A stretch of 64,000 nucleotides of DNA from Streptomyces sp. XD-27 (GTDB lineage: Bacteria > Actinomycetota > Actinomycetes > Streptomycetales > Streptomycetaceae). A program made the position numbers and the translations under genes. The notes below the pieces were generated by a model. It saw nothing but the letters and a program-made list of their open reading frames with translations. It was not told where the DNA came from and searched no databases. The stretch is taken from assembly GCF_030553055.1 (NCBI RefSeq), contig NZ_CP130713.1:3720001-3784000 (forward strand), given 5' to 3'. Below, in pieces: positions 13,873 to 20,180 of this stretch (positions are counted from its first letter, which is position 1; every line of letters begins with the position of its first letter).

Positions 13873-14014
13873 TCGCCTACCGGGTTAGCTGACGGGTTCG
13901 GAGCAGGAAGGTCTCCTACGGGCCAGGTGCGGCCCGATTCACCCCAAGGTTGGTGGTTCCCCGGTTCCCTTGGTGTTGCTGGTGGTGCAGTGGTGGTGCG
14001 TAGGGATTCGGCGA
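13873..14014 (-). ncRNA. c-di-AMP riboswitch (ydaO/yuaA type)
   Basis: On the minus strand the leader contains the class's conserved blocks: GGGGTGAATCGGGCC near 13945, GTAGGAGACCTTCCTGC near 13918, and CCGAACCCGTCAGCTAACC near 13900, closing with GGTAGGCGA. TCGCC at 14010-14014 can pair with GGCGA at 13873-13877 as the outer helix. It lies immediately upstream of a cell-wall hydrolase gene, the classical actinobacterial setting, where ligand binding turns expression off. Confidence 0.93.
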
Positions 14015-14419: not shown

Positions 14420-15199
14420 TCACAGCTCCACGCCGAGGGCCCGGGCCCGCCGGTCCGCCGCCAGCTCGGCCGCGGCCTCGTCGAGATAGACCTCGCACAC
14501 CAGCCGCCCGTCGCTGGTCAGGTTGTGCTCCAGCTCCCACAGGCTGATCTCGTCCCCGCACGCCAGCAGGAACGCGTGCTCATAGAAGCGGCACCATGTC
14601 GCGTCCCGTCCCCCCGAGCGCCGCCGCGGCTTCGGCGCGAGCGCGATGTCGTGGGCGAACGCGGTCGCGAGCAGTTGCTCGACCTCCTCGCCCGGCCGGT
14701 CGGAGTTCTCCGCACGGCGCAGCACGCGCCGCGCGTGGTCGGCGGAGTTGTCGGCCACGTACGCGCGGGACATCTCCAGCGGCACCGTGGTGCGCAGCAG
14801 TTGCTCGGGCAGCCACACCGGGCCCTTCTCGAACTCCTCCCAGTCCTCCCAGCGGCCGCCGCCGGTGAGCTCGTGCACACGGCGCTCGGCGGTGGTGAGG
14901 GCCTCCTCGTCCAGGTACAGCTCGTACAGGAGGCTCCCGTCCCGGGCGGTGTTGTGCTCCAGCTCCCACAGCAGCCCGCTGCTGCCGTCCGGCAGCAGGA
15001 AGACGTGCCGGAACGTGCTGTATCCCACCGGTCCTCGCGGCTCGTTGCACTGGCGGCACGACCGCAGTTCGGTCTGGTGCATCAGGGCGTCACGCAGCCG
15101 GACGAGCTCCGTTTCGTCGAGCTCGAACGTGTTCTGAGCGCGGGCCAGCAGCCCGTCAAGATGCTCGGTGGGCGGCCCGCCGGCTTCTGCGTGTCCCAT
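14420..15199 (-). CDS. DUF6227 family protein
   Basis: 259 residues, soluble and acidic, found across Streptomyces with no known role. It contains two copies of one module: HVFLLPDGSSGLLWELEHN followed by LYELYLDEEA (about residues 64-100), and HAFLLACGDEISLWELEHN followed by VCEVYLDEAA (about 200-240). Each copy is preceded by a helical segment. A CRQC pair near residue 48 could bind metal. The ATG at 15199 has GGAGGAG 7 nt upstream and is preferred over two upstream in-frame starts. Standing alone, read leftward. Confidence 0.8.
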   Translation of the reverse strand: MGHAEAGGPPTEHLDGLLARAQNTFELDETELVRLRDALMHQTELRSCRQCNEPRGPVGYSTFRHVFLLPDGSSGLLWELEHNTARDGSLLYELYLDEEALTTAERRVHELTGGGRWEDWEEFEKGPVWLPEQLLRTTVPLEMSRAYVADNSADHARRVLRRAENSDRPGEEVEQLLATAFAHDIALAPKPRRRSGGRDATWCRFYEHAFLLACGDEISLWELEHNLTSDGRLVCEVYLDEAAAELAADRRARALGVEL

Positions 15200-15415
15200 G
15201 TCTCTACTCCTCCCGGCCATCGACTCGCCGCGCCCCCGAAGCGACATCTCGCGACTTACCGTAGCGGCGTCGACACACCCCGCGTGCGGTGTTTGGCGAA
15301 GCCGTGGACCGCAGTTCCCTTTGCCCCCTGCTGCGGCACATGGCCGGGAATCATCACGCTTCGGGCTCGAGAGGCGACAGATCCAGCCACGGGTCAGGGG
15401 TCTGGCGCACGCTCC

Positions 15416-15523
15416 GTCGACGCCCCGGTCGGGCTGCCCTGGCAGGACCTCGCCGTCGCCCGGACCGCGTATCAGCGGGCGCGGCAGCGCGGCATCGGCA
15501 CGCGCGTCGACCTGCTGTCGTAA
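15416..15523 (+). pseudogene. Remnant of an ornithine cyclodeaminase/mu-crystallin-family gene (C-terminus only)
   Basis: About 35 codons ending in TAA read VGLPWQDLAVARTAY then RARQRGIGTRVDLLS. This matches the usual C-terminus of the ornithine cyclodeaminase/SbnB family (pattern GLAxxDLAxAxxAYxRAxxxGxGTxVDL). No upstream part, start or ribosome site is found. It is a relic rather than a small gene. Its neighbours, an ATP-grasp/PLP-decarboxylase fusion and a urea transporter, also handle amino-acid-derived nitrogen compounds, so it may be what is left of a larger cluster. Confidence 0.45.
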
Positions 15524-15544
15524 GCACTCGTGCGGTAGGGCTTG

Positions 15545-15587
15545 TTCGGCAGCGCTCGCTTCGGCAGCGCTCGTTTCGGCTGCGCTT
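15545..15587 (-). repeat. 15-bp tandem repeat after the urea transporter gene
   Basis: Three units of TTCGGCAGCGCTCGC (third one diverged) end 6 bp from the stop codon of the transporter gene. Part of the 3'-end repeat pattern seen across the window. Confidence 0.7.
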
Positions 15588-15593
15588 CCTCGT

Positions 15594-16577
15594 TCACACA
15601 GCGCGCCGGATCCGCGGAAAGGCCGGGACCGCGGCGATGAACAGCCAGGTGGTGATGGTGAAGGGCCAGGTGAGGGTACGTCCGCCGAAGGGCGTGAAGT
15701 AGGCGTTCAGTGCGGCCGTCAGCACGGTGGCGGCGGCCACGGCCACCAAGGCGTAGAGCGCGCTCGGTACCGTCCTCGCCAGGAACAGGGTGCCCAGGGC
15801 GATGGCCACCAGCACTCCGTTGTAGCCGTAGACGCCCACCGCGACCGCGCCCGGCGGGGCACCCAGCGCCCAGGCCACGAGCACCGCGACGGCGCTGCCC
15901 AGGACGGCGGCCAGACCCGGGCGGAGCCCCGCGACGAACAGCCCGACCAACATGATCGCGCCGACGTACCAGTGGGCCGAGAGGGCGACCTGGGAGATGT
16001 TGGTGAAGAACCCGTGCCACAGGTCGGTCCAGGTGTAGTCGGCGCCGGCCGTCGCCATGGCGGGCAGGGCGGCGGGGCTTCCGCCGTGCCAGACCCGGGT
16101 GAACGCCGGGGCCCCCATCACCGCCACCCCGCAGACGACGCAGAACGGCGCGGTCAGCGCCGGGAGCCTCCAGGGCGCCAGCAGGTTGGTCAGCGCCGAG
16201 TACAGCGGCACGCAGACGACGGCGCCGCCGACGGTCAGCACGTAGGTCGCGGGGTAGTGGCCCAGGAAGACGAACAGGGCCATGCCGGTCAGGCAGCCGC
16301 TGAAACCCTGCAGCCCGAGGTCGATGGCGCCCCTGTCGACGCCCAGGGCGTACGCGGTCGCGGTGGCGACCGCGGCGCCGAGCAGGCCGAGGGCGCCCAT
16401 CCGCCAGTCGCCCACGAAGAGCGCGAGCAGGATGATGGCCCCCGCGCGCGCGTTCGCCTGGAGGCTGAGCTGGGCGAAGCCGCGGACCAGCTGCGTCGTG
16501 AGGCGGACCGGGCCGGGCAGACCGGCGGTCTCCGCGGTGTCCGGCGAGGCCGCCTGCCACGTGTCGGGAGTGATCAT
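15594..16577 (-). CDS. Urea transporter family membrane protein
   Basis: 327 residues, almost entirely hydrophobic, with about ten helices in two homologous halves: GLQGFSGCLTGMALFVF in the first and VGVYGYNGVLVAIALG in the second are the paired UT-family motifs, and TNISQVALSAHW resembles the family signature before the second half. UT proteins are channel-like facilitators for urea or close amides. The ATG at 16577 has GGAGG 6 nt upstream. It starts 46 bp after the transglutaminase-like gene and is probably in the same transcript. No urease genes are visible in the window. Confidence 0.85.
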   Translation of the reverse strand: MITPDTWQAASPDTAETAGLPGPVRLTTQLVRGFAQLSLQANARAGAIILLALFVGDWRMGALGLLGAAVATATAYALGVDRGAIDLGLQGFSGCLTGMALFVFLGHYPATYVLTVGGAVVCVPLYSALTNLLAPWRLPALTAPFCVVCGVAVMGAPAFTRVWHGGSPAALPAMATAGADYTWTDLWHGFFTNISQVALSAHWYVGAIMLVGLFVAGLRPGLAAVLGSAVAVLVAWALGAPPGAVAVGVYGYNGVLVAIALGTLFLARTVPSALYALVAVAAATVLTAALNAYFTPFGGRTLTWPFTITTWLFIAAVPAFPRIRRAV

Positions 16578-16623
16578 GGATGCCTCCAGGGCGGCATGGC
16601 CGTCTCCACGACCGAGTCCGGCC

Positions 16624-17370
16624 TCATGACAGGACGTGCGGCGTTGAGGAGGGTGCTGACGTGGGGGCTGACGAGGGGGCTGACGAGGACTCCGACGAGG
16701 CATCCGGCGAGAGCGTCGACGACGCGTCGGGAGAGAGCATCGCCGACGTATCGGGCGCGAGCATCGACGACGCGTCGGGCGCGAGCGTCGAGGCCGGCGC
16801 CGGCAGGGGCGTCGGCGCCGGCGTCGACGTGCCGGGGTCGAACTGCCATGGCCCGTCGTCCTCGCGCACGGCGACGACGCGCGCGCCCGCCAGGTTTCCT
16901 CCTGCCCCCGCGAACCAGCGGGCGTCGCTCGGGTCCCACCACCGGTCTCCGACCCGGATCACCTCGTGGTGCACCACATTCCGCCCGATCCACGCGACGT
17001 TGGCCTGCGCCTCGTTCCAACTGACGCGCCAGTGGGCCGGGGCCAGCGGTCCTGTCAGCAGCGCGGCGCGACCGCGCGCGTGGGGGATGCCGTCCCGCTC
17101 CAGGAGCGCCGCCGCCACGTCGGCGTGGACCCCGCAGTCGCCGATGAGCCCGTCGTGGAGTGCCAGGTGGCACCAGTACGCGGGCCACTGCACGGGCCCC
17201 CACCGGAAGAGCTCGGGGACCGCGGCCAGCCGGGCTCCGATGTCCCCGAACTGTGTGAGCCGGGCGAACACGCCGTGCCTGACCATGTGGCAGCACGCCG
17301 CCCCATGACCGGCCACCCGGGACAGGCCGATCCGGTCGAACCGCTCCAGCTCCGCGAGCAGCTCCGTCAT
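16624..17370 (-). CDS. Transglutaminase-like protein with repetitive Ser/Pro/Ala tail
   Basis: 248 residues; I do not recognise a named family. Residues 70-155 look like a papain/transglutaminase core: GLIGDCGVHADVAAALL (Cys79), NVVHHEVIRVGDRWWDPSDARW (His134 or 135, Asp146) in the right order and spacing for a Cys-His-Asp triad. Upstream Trp-rich PVQWPAYWCHLALHDG is unusual. After 180 the protein becomes (A/S)PDxS repeats. It lies between the ATP-grasp/PLP fusion (113 bp upstream) and the urea transporter (46 bp downstream), all leftward. By analogy it might hydrolyse or transfer an amide made by the ATP-grasp partner. The ATG at 17370 lies inside a 23-bp tandem repeat that supplies GGGGAGC as ribosome site. 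Confidence 0.6.
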   Translation of the reverse strand: MTELLAELERFDRIGLSRVAGHGAACCHMVRHGVFARLTQFGDIGARLAAVPELFRWGPVQWPAYWCHLALHDGLIGDCGVHADVAAALLERDGIPHARGRAALLTGPLAPAHWRVSWNEAQANVAWIGRNVVHHEVIRVGDRWWDPSDARWFAGAGGNLAGARVVAVREDDGPWQFDPGTSTPAPTPLPAPASTLAPDASSMLAPDTSAMLSPDASSTLSPDASSESSSAPSSAPTSAPSSTPHVLS

Positions 17371-17507
17371 GGCCACCCCGCTCCCCGGGCTCGATGACTG
17401 CCTCGCTTCCCCGGTCATGGCTGCCCCGCTTCCCCGGTCACGACTGCCCCACTTCCCGCGGTCACGACTCCCGGTTCCCGCGGTCACGACTGCCCCAGTT
17501 CCCGCGG
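17367..17507 (-). repeat. Tandem repeat, six units of 22-24 bp, carrying a stop and a start codon
   Basis: Units start at 17367, 17391, 17415, 17438, 17462 and 17484 (top-strand coordinates). On the coding strand each reads roughly CCGCGGGAACTGGGGCAGTC then GTGA or ATGA. The unit at 17484 contains the stop of the ATP-grasp/PLP gene; the one at 17367 provides the ATG of the transglutaminase-like gene. The whole 113-bp spacer is therefore repeat DNA. Confidence 0.85.
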
Positions 17508-19913
17508 CACGGTCCCGCGCCCGAAGTCGTAGGCCATCGACGTGTCGTACGCGCCGCACATGCCGAACGCGAGGTAGTCGCCCTCACGGACGCCCGACAG
17601 GTCGAGGCAGACGGACAGCACGTCGTGCTCCATGCAGGACCTGCCCAGAATCCGGTTCCGGCCGGGCGGCAGCGGCACCCAGCGGGACCCGTCGAACCGG
17701 ACCACGGGGTGTGGATGGAACGGCGCCTCGGGCATGTCGCCCTCGGCCGCGTCGACGACGACGTCGCAGCCGTAGCGGGACTCCCGGCGCACCAGGACCT
17801 GGGTGACGACGGCGGCCGACGGCTGCGTGAGGAGCTTGCCCGGCTCCAGCACCAGCAGCGGGTCCCCGTCGTGTACGGCCGAGGGGCCCGCCGCGAGCAC
17901 GTACTCCAGCGACGTACGCAGCCCCGGCATGTCGTCGACGTGCCACCCGCCGCCGATGTCCAGCACGGCCGGGGCCGCTCCGAGCAGGTCCGCCAGCGGA
18001 TCCGCGGCGGCCAGTGCCGCGGCGCACTCGCGCTGCCAGCGCGACGTACCCAGGACGCTCTGGGCGTAGTGGAAGTGCAGCCCCCACCGGGCCTCGAGCC
18101 GCTCCGCGAGAGCGCCGAGCAGCCGGGCCGTCTCGGCCATGGCGTCGCGTTCGTGCAGCGGGATGCCGAACCGGCTGGCCACGCCGACGGGGGCGACCCG
18201 GACCCCGACGACGTCGGCCTCCAGCTTGAAGCCGTCGTCCAGCAGGGCGCTCAGCCCGCGCAGTTCCGCCAGGGAGTCGGCGAAGAAGGCCCAGCAGCGT
18301 ACGCGGTCGGCGGCGGGCCACCATTTCGCGGGCCCGTTGAGGATCGCCCGTTCGGCCGCCAGGCCGAGGCGGTCGGCGGCTTCGAGCTCGGCCAGGCTGA
18401 TGGCCTCGGCGACCATGTCGAGCCGCGCGGCCTCCCGCAGCACCTCGGGCTGCGGACACGTCTTCACGCTCTGCGCGAGCAGGAGTCGGCACAGCCCTTC
18501 GAGTTCCCGCCGCAGGGCCTGGACCCGTTCGGTGAACAGGGGGACGAGGAACTGTCTGCGCGGCGTGGCCTCGCGCCCGGGAGGTTCGAGCAGGTCCTCG
18601 AAGCCACCGGTCTCGTCGGCCACCGCCGCATGGCTTCCGACCGGCTCCTCGGCCACCGCGTCGCCCTCGGAGGGGACCAGACGCCGCTGGCCCAGTGCGG
18701 GCATCCCGGAATGGTGGTGCTTGTCCTCCGGATGGGACAGCCCCCCGGCGACCCAGCCGATGGGGGTGATGCCCAGCGCCGGGTTGACCGGGATCTCCTC
18801 GACCACCCGGGTGAAACCCGGCACCAGGCGCCTGCCGGAGCCGGGAGCGGCACCCCGGCATCCTGAGGGCGTGAGGGGACCCCCGGCGAGCAGGGCGGCG
18901 GGCAGGTTGGCGCCGCACACCGAGGCGCCGTGGATCCAGGCGGGGAGGCGCGGGTTGACCTCCATGAGCGTGAGGTCGCCGTTCCAGGCGCGGATGAGCT
19001 CCAGCTCGCCGCCGCCGGTCCACACGGCCTCGGCGACCAGGTCGGCCAGCCGGTCGCGCAGCGGCCCCTCGAGCTCCGCGACTTCGCCGGACCATGTCTT
19101 GCCCTCGCCCGTGACCACCGCCTTCGTCATGAAGACCGCGTCGAGGAGCCGGCCGTCGAGCGCGCAGAACGCGATACTGCACTCCTGGCCCGCGACGTGC
19201 TGCTCCACATGCCATCCGCCACCCCACGTCCGGCGGACGACGTCGCCCAGGGCCAGCACCTGCCCGGCGGTGTAGGCCCGGTACGCGTCGTAGTGCTGGC
19301 CCTTCACCCACACCCCGTGCGGAGCCAGACGGACGAACCGGTCGACAGCGAGCCAGCTGTTGTCGGTCTCGTACGCCGGAGTGCGCAGGCCGAGCCGTCC
19401 CGCGGCATCGAGCGGAGGCTTGCGCACCAGGTCCAGCGCCGTCTTCGAAGGGCCCAGGATCCGCTCGTGGGAACCCAGCTCCCTGGCCAGCAGCCGGACT
19501 TCAAGATCCAGACACGGGATCAGATACGCGTCCTCGGGCTCCAGAAGCCCGCTGATCTGCTCGGTCCACGTGGCGAGGTGCGCCCGCTTCCACGGCGGAA
19601 GGCACACCAGGTCGTCGAGGACGTCGGAGTGCAGCCCCGAACTCTCCGACGAGTAGTCCAAGCCGACGATCCGCAGTCCGGGCCAGGCCAGACGCAGGGA
19701 ACGGGCCACGCTCAGGCCGGGCGACGGGTTCGGGCCGCTGTGCATGCCGCTGATGAAGACCGTGCCGGCGGCCGGCGCGGGGCCGAAGAGGCCCACCGCC
19801 TCCTCCGCCCACGCCTCCTCCGCCCACGGGGCGACTCCCTGCGATGCCTCAGGTCTCTCGACATCCCGGGTCGCGCCCACTGGCTCGCGTCCAGTACGTG
19901 CTTGAAGCCCCAT
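17484..19913 (-). CDS. ATP-grasp ligase fused to a fold-III PLP-dependent decarboxylase
   Basis: 809 residues. Residues 51-345 are an ATP-grasp module of the carboxylate-amine ligase type: VFISGMHSGPNPS, a lysine at 204 (VKGQHYDAY), ELELI and LMEVNPRLP (near 303-323). Residues 455-805 are a diaminopimelate/ornithine decarboxylase-like barrel with every key motif: QSVKTCP (PLP lysine 484), DIGGGW (652), EPGK (690), C760 with D764 (RSCMEHD) and GAYDTSMAYDF (787). Both halves look active. The product could be an amino-acid-derived amine or amide; substrate cannot be told. It heads a leftward set with the transglutaminase-like and urea-transporter genes. Starts at GTG 19937 or GTG 19949 are possible; no clear ribosome site decides. 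Confidence 0.78.
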   Translation of the reverse strand: MGLQARTGREPVGATRDVERPEASQGVAPWAEEAWAEEAVGLFGPAPAAGTVFISGMHSGPNPSPGLSVARSLRLAWPGLRIVGLDYSSESSGLHSDVLDDLVCLPPWKRAHLATWTEQISGLLEPEDAYLIPCLDLEVRLLARELGSHERILGPSKTALDLVRKPPLDAAGRLGLRTPAYETDNSWLAVDRFVRLAPHGVWVKGQHYDAYRAYTAGQVLALGDVVRRTWGGGWHVEQHVAGQECSIAFCALDGRLLDAVFMTKAVVTGEGKTWSGEVAELEGPLRDRLADLVAEAVWTGGGELELIRAWNGDLTLMEVNPRLPAWIHGASVCGANLPAALLAGGPLTPSGCRGAAPGSGRRLVPGFTRVVEEIPVNPALGITPIGWVAGGLSHPEDKHHHSGMPALGQRRLVPSEGDAVAEEPVGSHAAVADETGGFEDLLEPPGREATPRRQFLVPLFTERVQALRRELEGLCRLLLAQSVKTCPQPEVLREAARLDMVAEAISLAELEAADRLGLAAERAILNGPAKWWPAADRVRCWAFFADSLAELRGLSALLDDGFKLEADVVGVRVAPVGVASRFGIPLHERDAMAETARLLGALAERLEARWGLHFHYAQSVLGTSRWQRECAAALAAADPLADLLGAAPAVLDIGGGWHVDDMPGLRTSLEYVLAAGPSAVHDGDPLLVLEPGKLLTQPSAAVVTQVLVRRESRYGCDVVVDAAEGDMPEAPFHPHPVVRFDGSRWVPLPPGRNRILGRSCMEHDVLSVCLDLSGVREGDYLAFGMCGAYDTSMAYDFGRGTVPRELGQS

Positions 19914-20107
19914 GCCGACATCATCAGCAGAGGTCACTCCCCCGCGCACCCGGTGGCATCCGGCAGGGTGAGCGCCCCCTCCGCGATCTTCACCCGCACC
20001 CGACGCCGCCCCCGCGCGCCGCCTCCGGACACGGAAGCGCCCCGGCCACTCACCGCGGCCGGGGCGCATATCTGCTGGTCAGAGGCCCTGCGGGACGTCC
20101 AACCGAG

Positions 20108-20180
20108 TGGGTCATCAGGGGCTCGAACCCTGAACCAATGGATTAAAAGTCCACTGCTCTGCCAATTGAGCTAATGACCC
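20108..20180 (-). tRNA. tRNA-Lys (anticodon TTT)
   Basis: 73 nt. Acceptor GGGTCAT pairs with ATGACCC; anticodon loop CTTTTAA gives TTT; T-loop GGTTCGAGCC is canonical. CCA is not encoded. Confidence 0.96.

Follow-up and report, generated by a model that had tools for sequence, protein, structure and literature searches.

The genome of Streptomyces sp. XD-27 consists of a single contig of 7.55 Mb (NZ_CP130713.1 of assembly GCF_030553055.1), of which we have analysed a stretch of 64,000 nucleotides (positions 3,720,001 to 3,784,000), referred to as the window, whose first letter is position 1 in the following. This stretch contains three consecutive genes on its minus strand, encoding a protein of 809 residues that combines an ATP-grasp half with a fold III pyridoxal 5'-phosphate (PLP)-dependent decarboxylase half, a transglutaminase-like protein and a member of the urea transporter family (Table 1). 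A first-pass annotation, made from the letters of the stretch, had described both halves of the fusion as intact and the three frames as separated by 113 and 46 bp, which agrees with our analysis, where all three frames are intact. The frame of the fusion is not a chance frame, as a protein search retrieved 75 homologues with E <= 2.8e-69, besides one marginal match, and a scan of reference genomes at least 580 relatives. Its nearest homologues originate from Streptomyces, where the fusion was found in 3 of 295 sampled genomes including that of the window, and the single occurrence among 396 genomes of a sample of the phylum is the window's own genome. The fusion is therefore rare. Pattern scans for promoters and terminators gave no result.

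Table 1. Features of the three-gene set and its surroundings (positions within the window).
Feature	Position	Strand	Basis or remark
ATP-grasp/fold III PLP decarboxylase fusion, 809 residues	17484-19913	-	intact frame (ATG at 19913, stop ending at 17484), PF02784, alignment, model
Transglutaminase-fold cysteine enzyme	16624-17370	-	intact frame (ATG 17370, stop 16624), alignment, model, 554 relatives
Urea transporter family membrane channel (PF03253)	15594-16577	-	intact frame (ATG 16577, stop 15594), Pfam, filter residues
Ornithine cyclodeaminase C-terminal relic, 36 residues and stop	15413-15523	+	alignment to intact homologue
tRNA-Lys(ttt), immediately upstream of the cassette	20107-20180	-	
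DUF6227 gene, other flank of the three-gene set	14420-15247		Pfam
Three diverged copies of a 38-nt repeat	17401-17507		covers last codons of the fusion gene and the spacer that follows it

The loci used to characterize the conservation of the set, the best 80 of the at least 580 relatives, were found with two peptide patterns and do not constitute a random sample. By likeness and gene order they were divided into type A, comprising 44 loci with the window counted once, and type B, comprising 40 loci (L044-L085 without L045 and L072), whose gene sets we refer to as cassette A and the sister operon. Among the 40 type-A loci with at least 500 bp downstream of the fusion, 35 carry the transglutaminase-like gene directly at its 3' side, often overlapping with it, and loci containing both genes are found in seven phyla (Actinomycetota, Pseudomonadota, Acidobacteriota, Bdellovibrionota, Verrucomicrobiota, Spirochaetota and Chloroflexi). 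Across 32 loci that contain both genes and whose fusion reaches 600 bits or more, the pairwise distances of the two proteins correlate with r 0.928, a value not reached in any of 2000 permutations (highest 0.253), although a high r can also result merely from neighbouring genes having descended together. The first-pass annotation had proposed to search for conserved co-occurrence and would have abandoned its view of a common pathway for homologues that never co-occur; instead, the fusion and the transglutaminase-like gene form a conserved unit.

In an alignment of 29 sequences (A1), the start of the fusion resembles that of the homologues P0002, P0006 and P0008, with P0001 being annotated with a later start. 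A Pfam scan identified PF02784 above its cut-off (E 2.3e-8) and PF00278 below it (E 0.0025). The predicted structure has a mean predicted local distance difference test score (pLDDT) of 82.6 and a predicted template modelling score (pTM) of 0.68. In searches of family models, proteins and PDB profiles, we found no characterised enzyme that matches the fusion over its whole length. For the N-terminal half, the motifs VWVKG (containing the lysine), EGKTW and E-x-NPR-x-PAW are conserved, with the lysine and E-x-N-P-R retained at 90% or above in A1. Homology and ATP/Mg-binding motifs together assign this half to the ATP-grasp superfamily, a fold that we attribute on the basis of its sequence. The model PF15632 (ATPgrasp_Ter) remains below its gathering cut-off in the window (E 3e-4, 21 bits compared to 29.1) and is precomputed for several homologues. 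Stand-alone ATP-grasp proteins of type B, which were found with the A1 profile, have carbamoyl phosphate synthetase as nearest solved structure (79 bits, E 2.7e-21), followed by 2pn1 (67 bits), and the two proteins that were scanned fall below all NCBIfam cut-offs listed, including a weak match to MfnD (E 0.0024, 17 bits compared to a cut-off of 400).

In the decarboxylase half, the PLP-binding Lys484, the GGG and EPGK motifs and the pair Cys760/Asp764 are located where the first-pass annotation had placed them. GGG (654-656), Glu690 and Gly692 are invariant in A1, Lys484, Lys693, Cys760 and Asp764 are conserved at 90% or above and His615 and Met761 are either invariant or conserved to that extent. 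The residues expected in decarboxylases of conjugated amino acids, namely the catalytic lysine, the GGG loop, the PLP-stacking histidine and the cysteine and methionine of the loop, are all present. Among PDB entries, a profile of the 29 fusions best matches the N-citrylornithine decarboxylase 7kh2 (153 bits), with further matches to LysA (128 bits for the best), BtrK (120 bits) and SbnH (81 bits), and a stand-alone decarboxylase of type B scores 191 bits with 7kh2 and 151 bits with LysA. A similar relationship is reflected in the loop, which reads C760-M761-E762-H763-D764 in the window, C-M-E-x-D in 68 of the 75 fusion homologues, C-M-N/Q-I-D in all 39 decarboxylase frames of the sister operon and C-M-Q-H-D at the corresponding position of the aligned 7kh2. 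According to the work on this structure (PMC7857480), Met355 replaces the acidic residue of lysine/ornithine, arginine and diaminopimelate decarboxylases and His357 was modelled against the citryl group. The same work places FigC, SbnH, AcsE, MccE and BtrK in one clade with diaminopimelate and D-ornithine decarboxylases, each of these five acting on an amino-acid group that is part of a conjugate with citrate, a peptide-nucleotide or a carrier protein, and describes R343 of M. jannaschii LysA as an arginine of the specificity helix that binds the distal carboxylate (PMC7857480). At the place aligned to R343, the consensus in our proteins is LPEA-x-x-x-PHP and no matching arginine was seen, as judged by eye from alignments and not from a superposition. 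By its sequence profile and loop, the decarboxylase half is related to the conjugate decarboxylases, and the diamine-forming enzyme suggested by the first-pass annotation is, in view of the PDB profile, the loop motif and the relatives, less likely than one acting on an already conjugated amino acid.

Two specific assignments were rejected. A role as LysA in lysine biosynthesis is contradicted by a score of 71.6 bits with TIGR01048, whose equivalog cut-off is 297.9, and by the methionine of the loop in place of the acidic residue in C-E-x-x-D, with the LysA chains 1twi and 2p3e reading C-E in the alignments. Similarly, NF041039, which describes N-citrylornithine decarboxylases (FigC/FslC) proper, is matched with 42.4 bits compared to a cut-off of 500.

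The two halves of the fusion could also act in the opposite order, with the PLP half generating a free amine or diamine that the ATP-grasp half would subsequently join to an acid. This order is found in methanofuran synthesis, where tyrosine decarboxylase precedes the tyramine-glutamate ligase MfnD, and it is compatible with a protein in which both halves are fused, where either order is possible. It is also in line with the weak MfnD match of the ATP-grasp protein from the sister operon and with a Foldseek search using the model of the fusion, which gave 626 matches at E <= 0.001 and placed the half among fold III decarboxylases, with lysine/ornithine decarboxylases ranking first by E-value. 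The sequence profiles, in contrast, place the decarboxylase nearer to the conjugate decarboxylases, and we consider decarboxylation as first step to be somewhat unlikely. We prefer ligation as first step because the five relatives described above decarboxylate amino-acid groups that are already attached.

The transglutaminase-like protein contains a Cys-His-Asp triad of transglutaminase type, as described in the first-pass annotation, which consists of Cys79, His135 and Asp146. These residues are invariant in all 30 rows of an alignment (A3) that omits some of the 37 transglutaminase-like matches, including L033, which breaks off before the aspartate, and they are retained in each of 120 further members, the best of 554 relatives. 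His22, Cys26, Cys27 and Cys67 are equally invariant in A3. The predicted model, with a pLDDT of 95.6, and its structural matches support a transglutaminase fold. The protein of the window has no match in Pfam or NCBIfam, and PF01841 (Transglut_core) has no significant match in the 31 members that were scanned, the best E-value of 0.092 coming from a single one. A profile of the family searched against PDB sequences found just weak matches to SIAH (E 1.2). The protein is thus a member of a transglutaminase-fold family without Pfam entry. Its C-terminal part is a repetitive tail rich in Ser, Ala and Pro (about 16627-16830), which is absent in its two nearest relatives (L006 and L087). One locus (L015:12177-14015) encodes the transglutaminase-like domain in one chain with a radical S-adenosylmethionine (SAM) domain resembling RaSEA, a subunit of archaeosine synthase (206.6 bits, cut-off 212.15), and the gene adjoins one for a B12-binding radical SAM protein.

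The product of the third gene belongs to the urea transporter family, as proposed in the first-pass annotation, with PF03253 matched at 264.1 bits compared to a cut-off of 25 (E 1.8e-78) and an alignment to solved urea channels that extends across the whole domain. It scores below the NCBIfam equivalog for Yut (200.8 bits of the required 274.6) and is the sole urea transporter found in a search of the genome. In the numbering of dvUT, the residues coordinating urea are Q24, T130, E/Q187 and T294. At these positions, the window contains Q, T, Q and T and hence a canonical filter, and positions 27 and 190, which are Phe in dvUT, are Leu in the window and in other Streptomyces transporters. Its best identities, 54-57%, are to urea transporters of Streptomyces without a fusion, among which the protein nests in a tree, and it is by descent an ordinary urea channel of the Streptomyces type.

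The association of such channels with the fusion is recurrent and optional. A transporter is located within about 1.6 kb downstream of the fusion in 9 of the 34 type-A loci with sufficient room; the window and L087 are further loci with transporter, and in L014 it is located upstream. As the gene is missing beside the other 25 of the 34 loci, it is not essential to the chemistry. Loci containing a transporter occupy three separate places in the tree of the fusion (Streptomyces; Collimonas and Pseudomonas; Bdellovibrionota together with one proteobacterium), and the fusion-adjacent transporters in turn fall into different branches of the transporter tree, both being quick trees with long-branch warnings. 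The cassette thus seems to have acquired its channels more than once and from different branches, an argument in favour of a function connected with a small amide-like solute. The membership of the transporter in the set, as claimed in the first-pass annotation, is in this way retained for a recurrent partner, with the qualification that it is optional and, in the window, of ordinary descent.

The sister operon, exemplified by L050:9718-16573, contains ATP-grasp protein and decarboxylase as separate neighbouring genes, whose products are 23-36% identical to the fusion in the best segment and which are found in Bacteroidota, Zetaproteobacteria, Myxococcales and others. In all 38 type-B loci with sufficient room, the pair is preceded by a PqqD-type protein (PF05402 in L050 and L064), and a urea transporter is located downstream in 30 of 32. 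In 28 of 30 loci with sufficient room, its frame also carries an M23 peptidase domain (Pfam-confirmed in L050), and the H-x-H motif of this domain is present in 32 of 32 rows of an alignment, which was used instead of a regular expression that proved too strict (5 of 30 matched). In the two loci without a counted downstream transporter, the transporter is either located upstream (L048) or the downstream frame carries an M23 domain (L073). In many loci, there follow tetratricopeptide repeat proteins (by Pfam in L050 and L064) and proteins that, by eye, resemble outer-membrane barrels. The common denominator of cassette A and the sister operon is an ATP-grasp protein, a decarboxylase and often a urea-type channel. 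In several loci (L064:9159-9974, L067:9222-10004, L074, L075 and L084), the PqqD domain is part of a protein of about 270 residues, whose front part in L064 is a TetR-type DNA-binding domain according to Pfam. We found no description of the sister operon in the open-licence literature searched.

The composition of both gene sets bears on two further explanations. In one, the channel would import urea as substrate or nitrogen source for the neighbouring enzymes, such as an ATP-grasp half resembling carbamoyl phosphate synthetase. The canonical filter of the window channel and the proximity of the sister-operon ATP-grasp protein to this synthetase would fit such a role, which is at odds with the 25 type-A loci that lack an adjacent transporter and with the filter in type B, where Ala or Ser occupies position 187 in 28 of 34 channels and Ser is found at position 130 in 28 of 35, and we regard urea import as highly unlikely. 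In the other, the ATP-grasp protein would load an amino acid onto a peptide or protein, where it would be decarboxylated by the PLP half, as by BtrK on BtrI, before the product is released by the transglutaminase-fold enzyme or by the M23 domain of the sister operon. In the PDB, BtrK is one of the three best-matching kinds of relative, PqqD-type proteins belong to a family of peptide chaperones and a peptidase-type enzyme is found in both gene sets. We recognised no carrier protein beside cassette A, in a listing restricted to open reading frames of at least 60 residues and without use of a carrier model, and the cassette-A loci yielded no homologue of the PqqD from the sister operon, making a carrier-bound pathway unlikely.

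With respect to its genomic site, the cassette is located next to a tRNA-Lys gene, which in all eight other Streptomyces stretches anchored at a DEAD-box helicase gene (L124-L131) is found up to about 4 kb downstream of the latter, with the DNA beyond differing between genomes. The fusion, transglutaminase-like and urea transporter genes are absent from all eight of these stretches of 13-14.5 kb, and the M23 peptidase gene of the window is found about 2 to 10 kb beyond the tRNA where in reach (three of eight). If the DUF6227 gene is instead used as anchor, the tRNA and the other neighbours of the window are found in none of eight stretches fetched. The tRNA-Lys gene is in none of 12 repeat families between positions 14000 and 21000 (at least 16 nt, seed 12), integrases not having been searched for. 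The surroundings of the tRNA are likely an insertion hotspot, and the location of the cassette in a variable region is in keeping with its horizontal gain. Such a region might also bring together unrelated genes, in this case an accessory fusion gene and a common Streptomyces urea transporter. The latter is found in 60 of the 295 Streptomyces genomes, 57 of which lack the fusion, and a second Streptomyces clade contains the fusion without adjacent transporter (on a plasmid of S. zaomyceticus, and in G077, which has one on another contig). Yet, the fusion and the transglutaminase-like gene are found together in seven phyla and transporters recur beside fusions of unrelated hosts and in nearly all sister operons, which makes chance neighbourhood very improbable.

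The cyclodeaminase fragment next to the cassette had been noted in the first-pass annotation, together with the ability of SbnB-type cyclodeaminases to make unusual diamino acids. The relic is real, its 36 residues being 67% identical to the last 36 of an intact cyclodeaminase frame of 319 residues in another Streptomyces, but its role as pathway member was rejected, as two intact cyclodeaminases used as queries gave no match among the open reading frames of the other fusion loci. The sole matches were two unlinked genes of the window's genome, which contains three matches to the family, none of them near the cassette. The relic is therefore no evidence for a diamino-acid precursor, and it is a bystander, the remnant of a neighbouring gene outside the cassette.

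Other genes accompany the fusion in part of the loci. B12-binding radical SAM proteins are found near it in seven loci (Pfam-checked in L034, L020 and L015) and a class V aminotransferase in L008, and these tailoring-type neighbours support a biosynthetic function as best explanation. On the S. zaomyceticus plasmid, a fatty acid desaturase is located beside the cassette. Nine loci (L013, L016, L019, L022, L029, L030, L035, L036 and L039), six of them acidobacterial, contain a gene family of about 250 residues, in some cases as tandem pair, which has no Pfam match in six members scanned and whose H-x-D, H, R pattern, by eye, looks like that of an iron/2-oxoglutarate oxygenase. A minus-strand gene of about 150 residues is located upstream of the fusion in L028 (9538-9981), L024, L026, L027 and L032, mostly from Bdellovibrionota; its GCAVAC motif looks cysteine-peptidase-like by eye and there is no Pfam match in L028, the one member scanned.

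Together, we propose that the three genes could constitute the central part of a small biosynthetic cassette that spreads by horizontal transfer. In this mechanism, the ATP-grasp half would use ATP to form an amide bond between a carboxylic acid and an amino acid, and the decarboxylase half would remove the alpha-carboxyl group of the conjugated amino acid to yield an amide with an amine tail, thus combining on one chain the order of ligation and decarboxylation known from FigA/FigC, SbnH and AcsE. The transglutaminase-fold enzyme may then transfer or hydrolyse an acyl or amide bond of the intermediate, and in some lineages including that of the window, the urea-type channel might serve as membrane passage for a solute of the pathway that is small, neutral and amide-like. 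The order of the steps, the substrates, the transglutaminase step and the direction of transport are what we would infer for a set whose gene content, conservation, folds and catalytic residues are as observed. To the entire chain, from ligation to the movement of the solute, we attach slightly less than even confidence. That the fusion and the transglutaminase-like protein work together is held with much higher confidence. From the small pathway suggested in the first-pass annotation, a biosynthetic set of ligase, decarboxylase, cysteine hydrolase or transferase and channel is retained as best reading, a urea- or guanidine-like product is one candidate, and the diamine route with a cyclodeaminase is abandoned.

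Several observations weigh against the proposed mechanism. The transglutaminase-like gene is absent in 5 of the 40 type-A loci (L007, L037, L042, L045 and L072) and from all 40 sister operons, and most type-A loci, including those of the second Streptomyces clade, lack the adjacent transporter. The loop deviates from C-M-E-x-D in 7 of the 75 homologues and 5 of the 44 type-A frames, three of which have no match at all and some of which are cut off or decayed. The order of steps is drawn from the decarboxylase half only, for which the ranking in Foldseek favours lysine/ornithine decarboxylases, the confidence of the fusion model is moderate and no member of the cassette has a known activity. 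In a broader and more tentative reading, which we consider possible rather than probable, cassette A and the sister operon would be two architectures of one undescribed and widely spread system, where a FigC-like decarboxylase and an ATP-grasp ligase generate a urea- or amide-like product. Urea channels would have been recruited as its exporters more than once, perhaps three times (as ordinary channel in Streptomyces, in modified form in Proteobacteria and Bdellovibrionota and fused to M23 in the PqqD operons), and the new transglutaminase-fold family would handle the product in cassette A.

Among known systems, the pairs of NIS synthetase and decarboxylase that produce citrate siderophores (FigA/FigC for rhizoferrin, SbnH for staphyloferrin B and AcsE for achromobactin) likewise combine a ligase with a decarboxylase of alanine-racemase fold, and FigC, the nearest PDB relative of the decarboxylase half in the window, shares its C-M-x-x-D loop. 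In contrast to these pairs, the ligase of the window is ATP-grasp-like instead of an NIS synthetase and is fused to the decarboxylase, and the cassette contains in addition an enzyme of transglutaminase fold and, in some loci, a urea channel. In butirosin synthesis, BtrK decarboxylates an amino acid bound to something larger, but its substrate is a conjugate with the carrier protein BtrI, its loop reads C-T-P-E-D in the alignment and the cassette has no recognised carrier beside it. Operons containing Anbu, Alpha-E, ATP-grasp and transglutaminase proteins (Iyer et al., 2009), a proposed peptide-synthesis system according to PMC5666114, resemble cassette A in the juxtaposition of ATP-grasp protein and transglutaminase, whereas the family in the cassette has no significant Pfam match and its ligase is fused to a PLP decarboxylase. 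Finally, the transporter of the window belongs to the same family as the bacterial urea channels dvUT and Yut, but is adjacent to the cassette and below the equivalog cut-off of Yut. In accordance with the first-pass annotation, which knew of no system with this exact combination, we found none in the open-licence literature searched, where the set has no described counterpart; a description elsewhere, for example in Iyer et al. (2009) or in subscription journals, is possible.

The retention of a ligase-decarboxylase core in many phyla, in the company of exchangeable neighbours and of a channel from a family known for urea, points to an unknown small metabolite of broad use, whose genes in cassette A are compact, comprising three. 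If our proposal is correct, it would extend the work of urea channels to specialised metabolism and establish a family of transglutaminase fold not named in Pfam.

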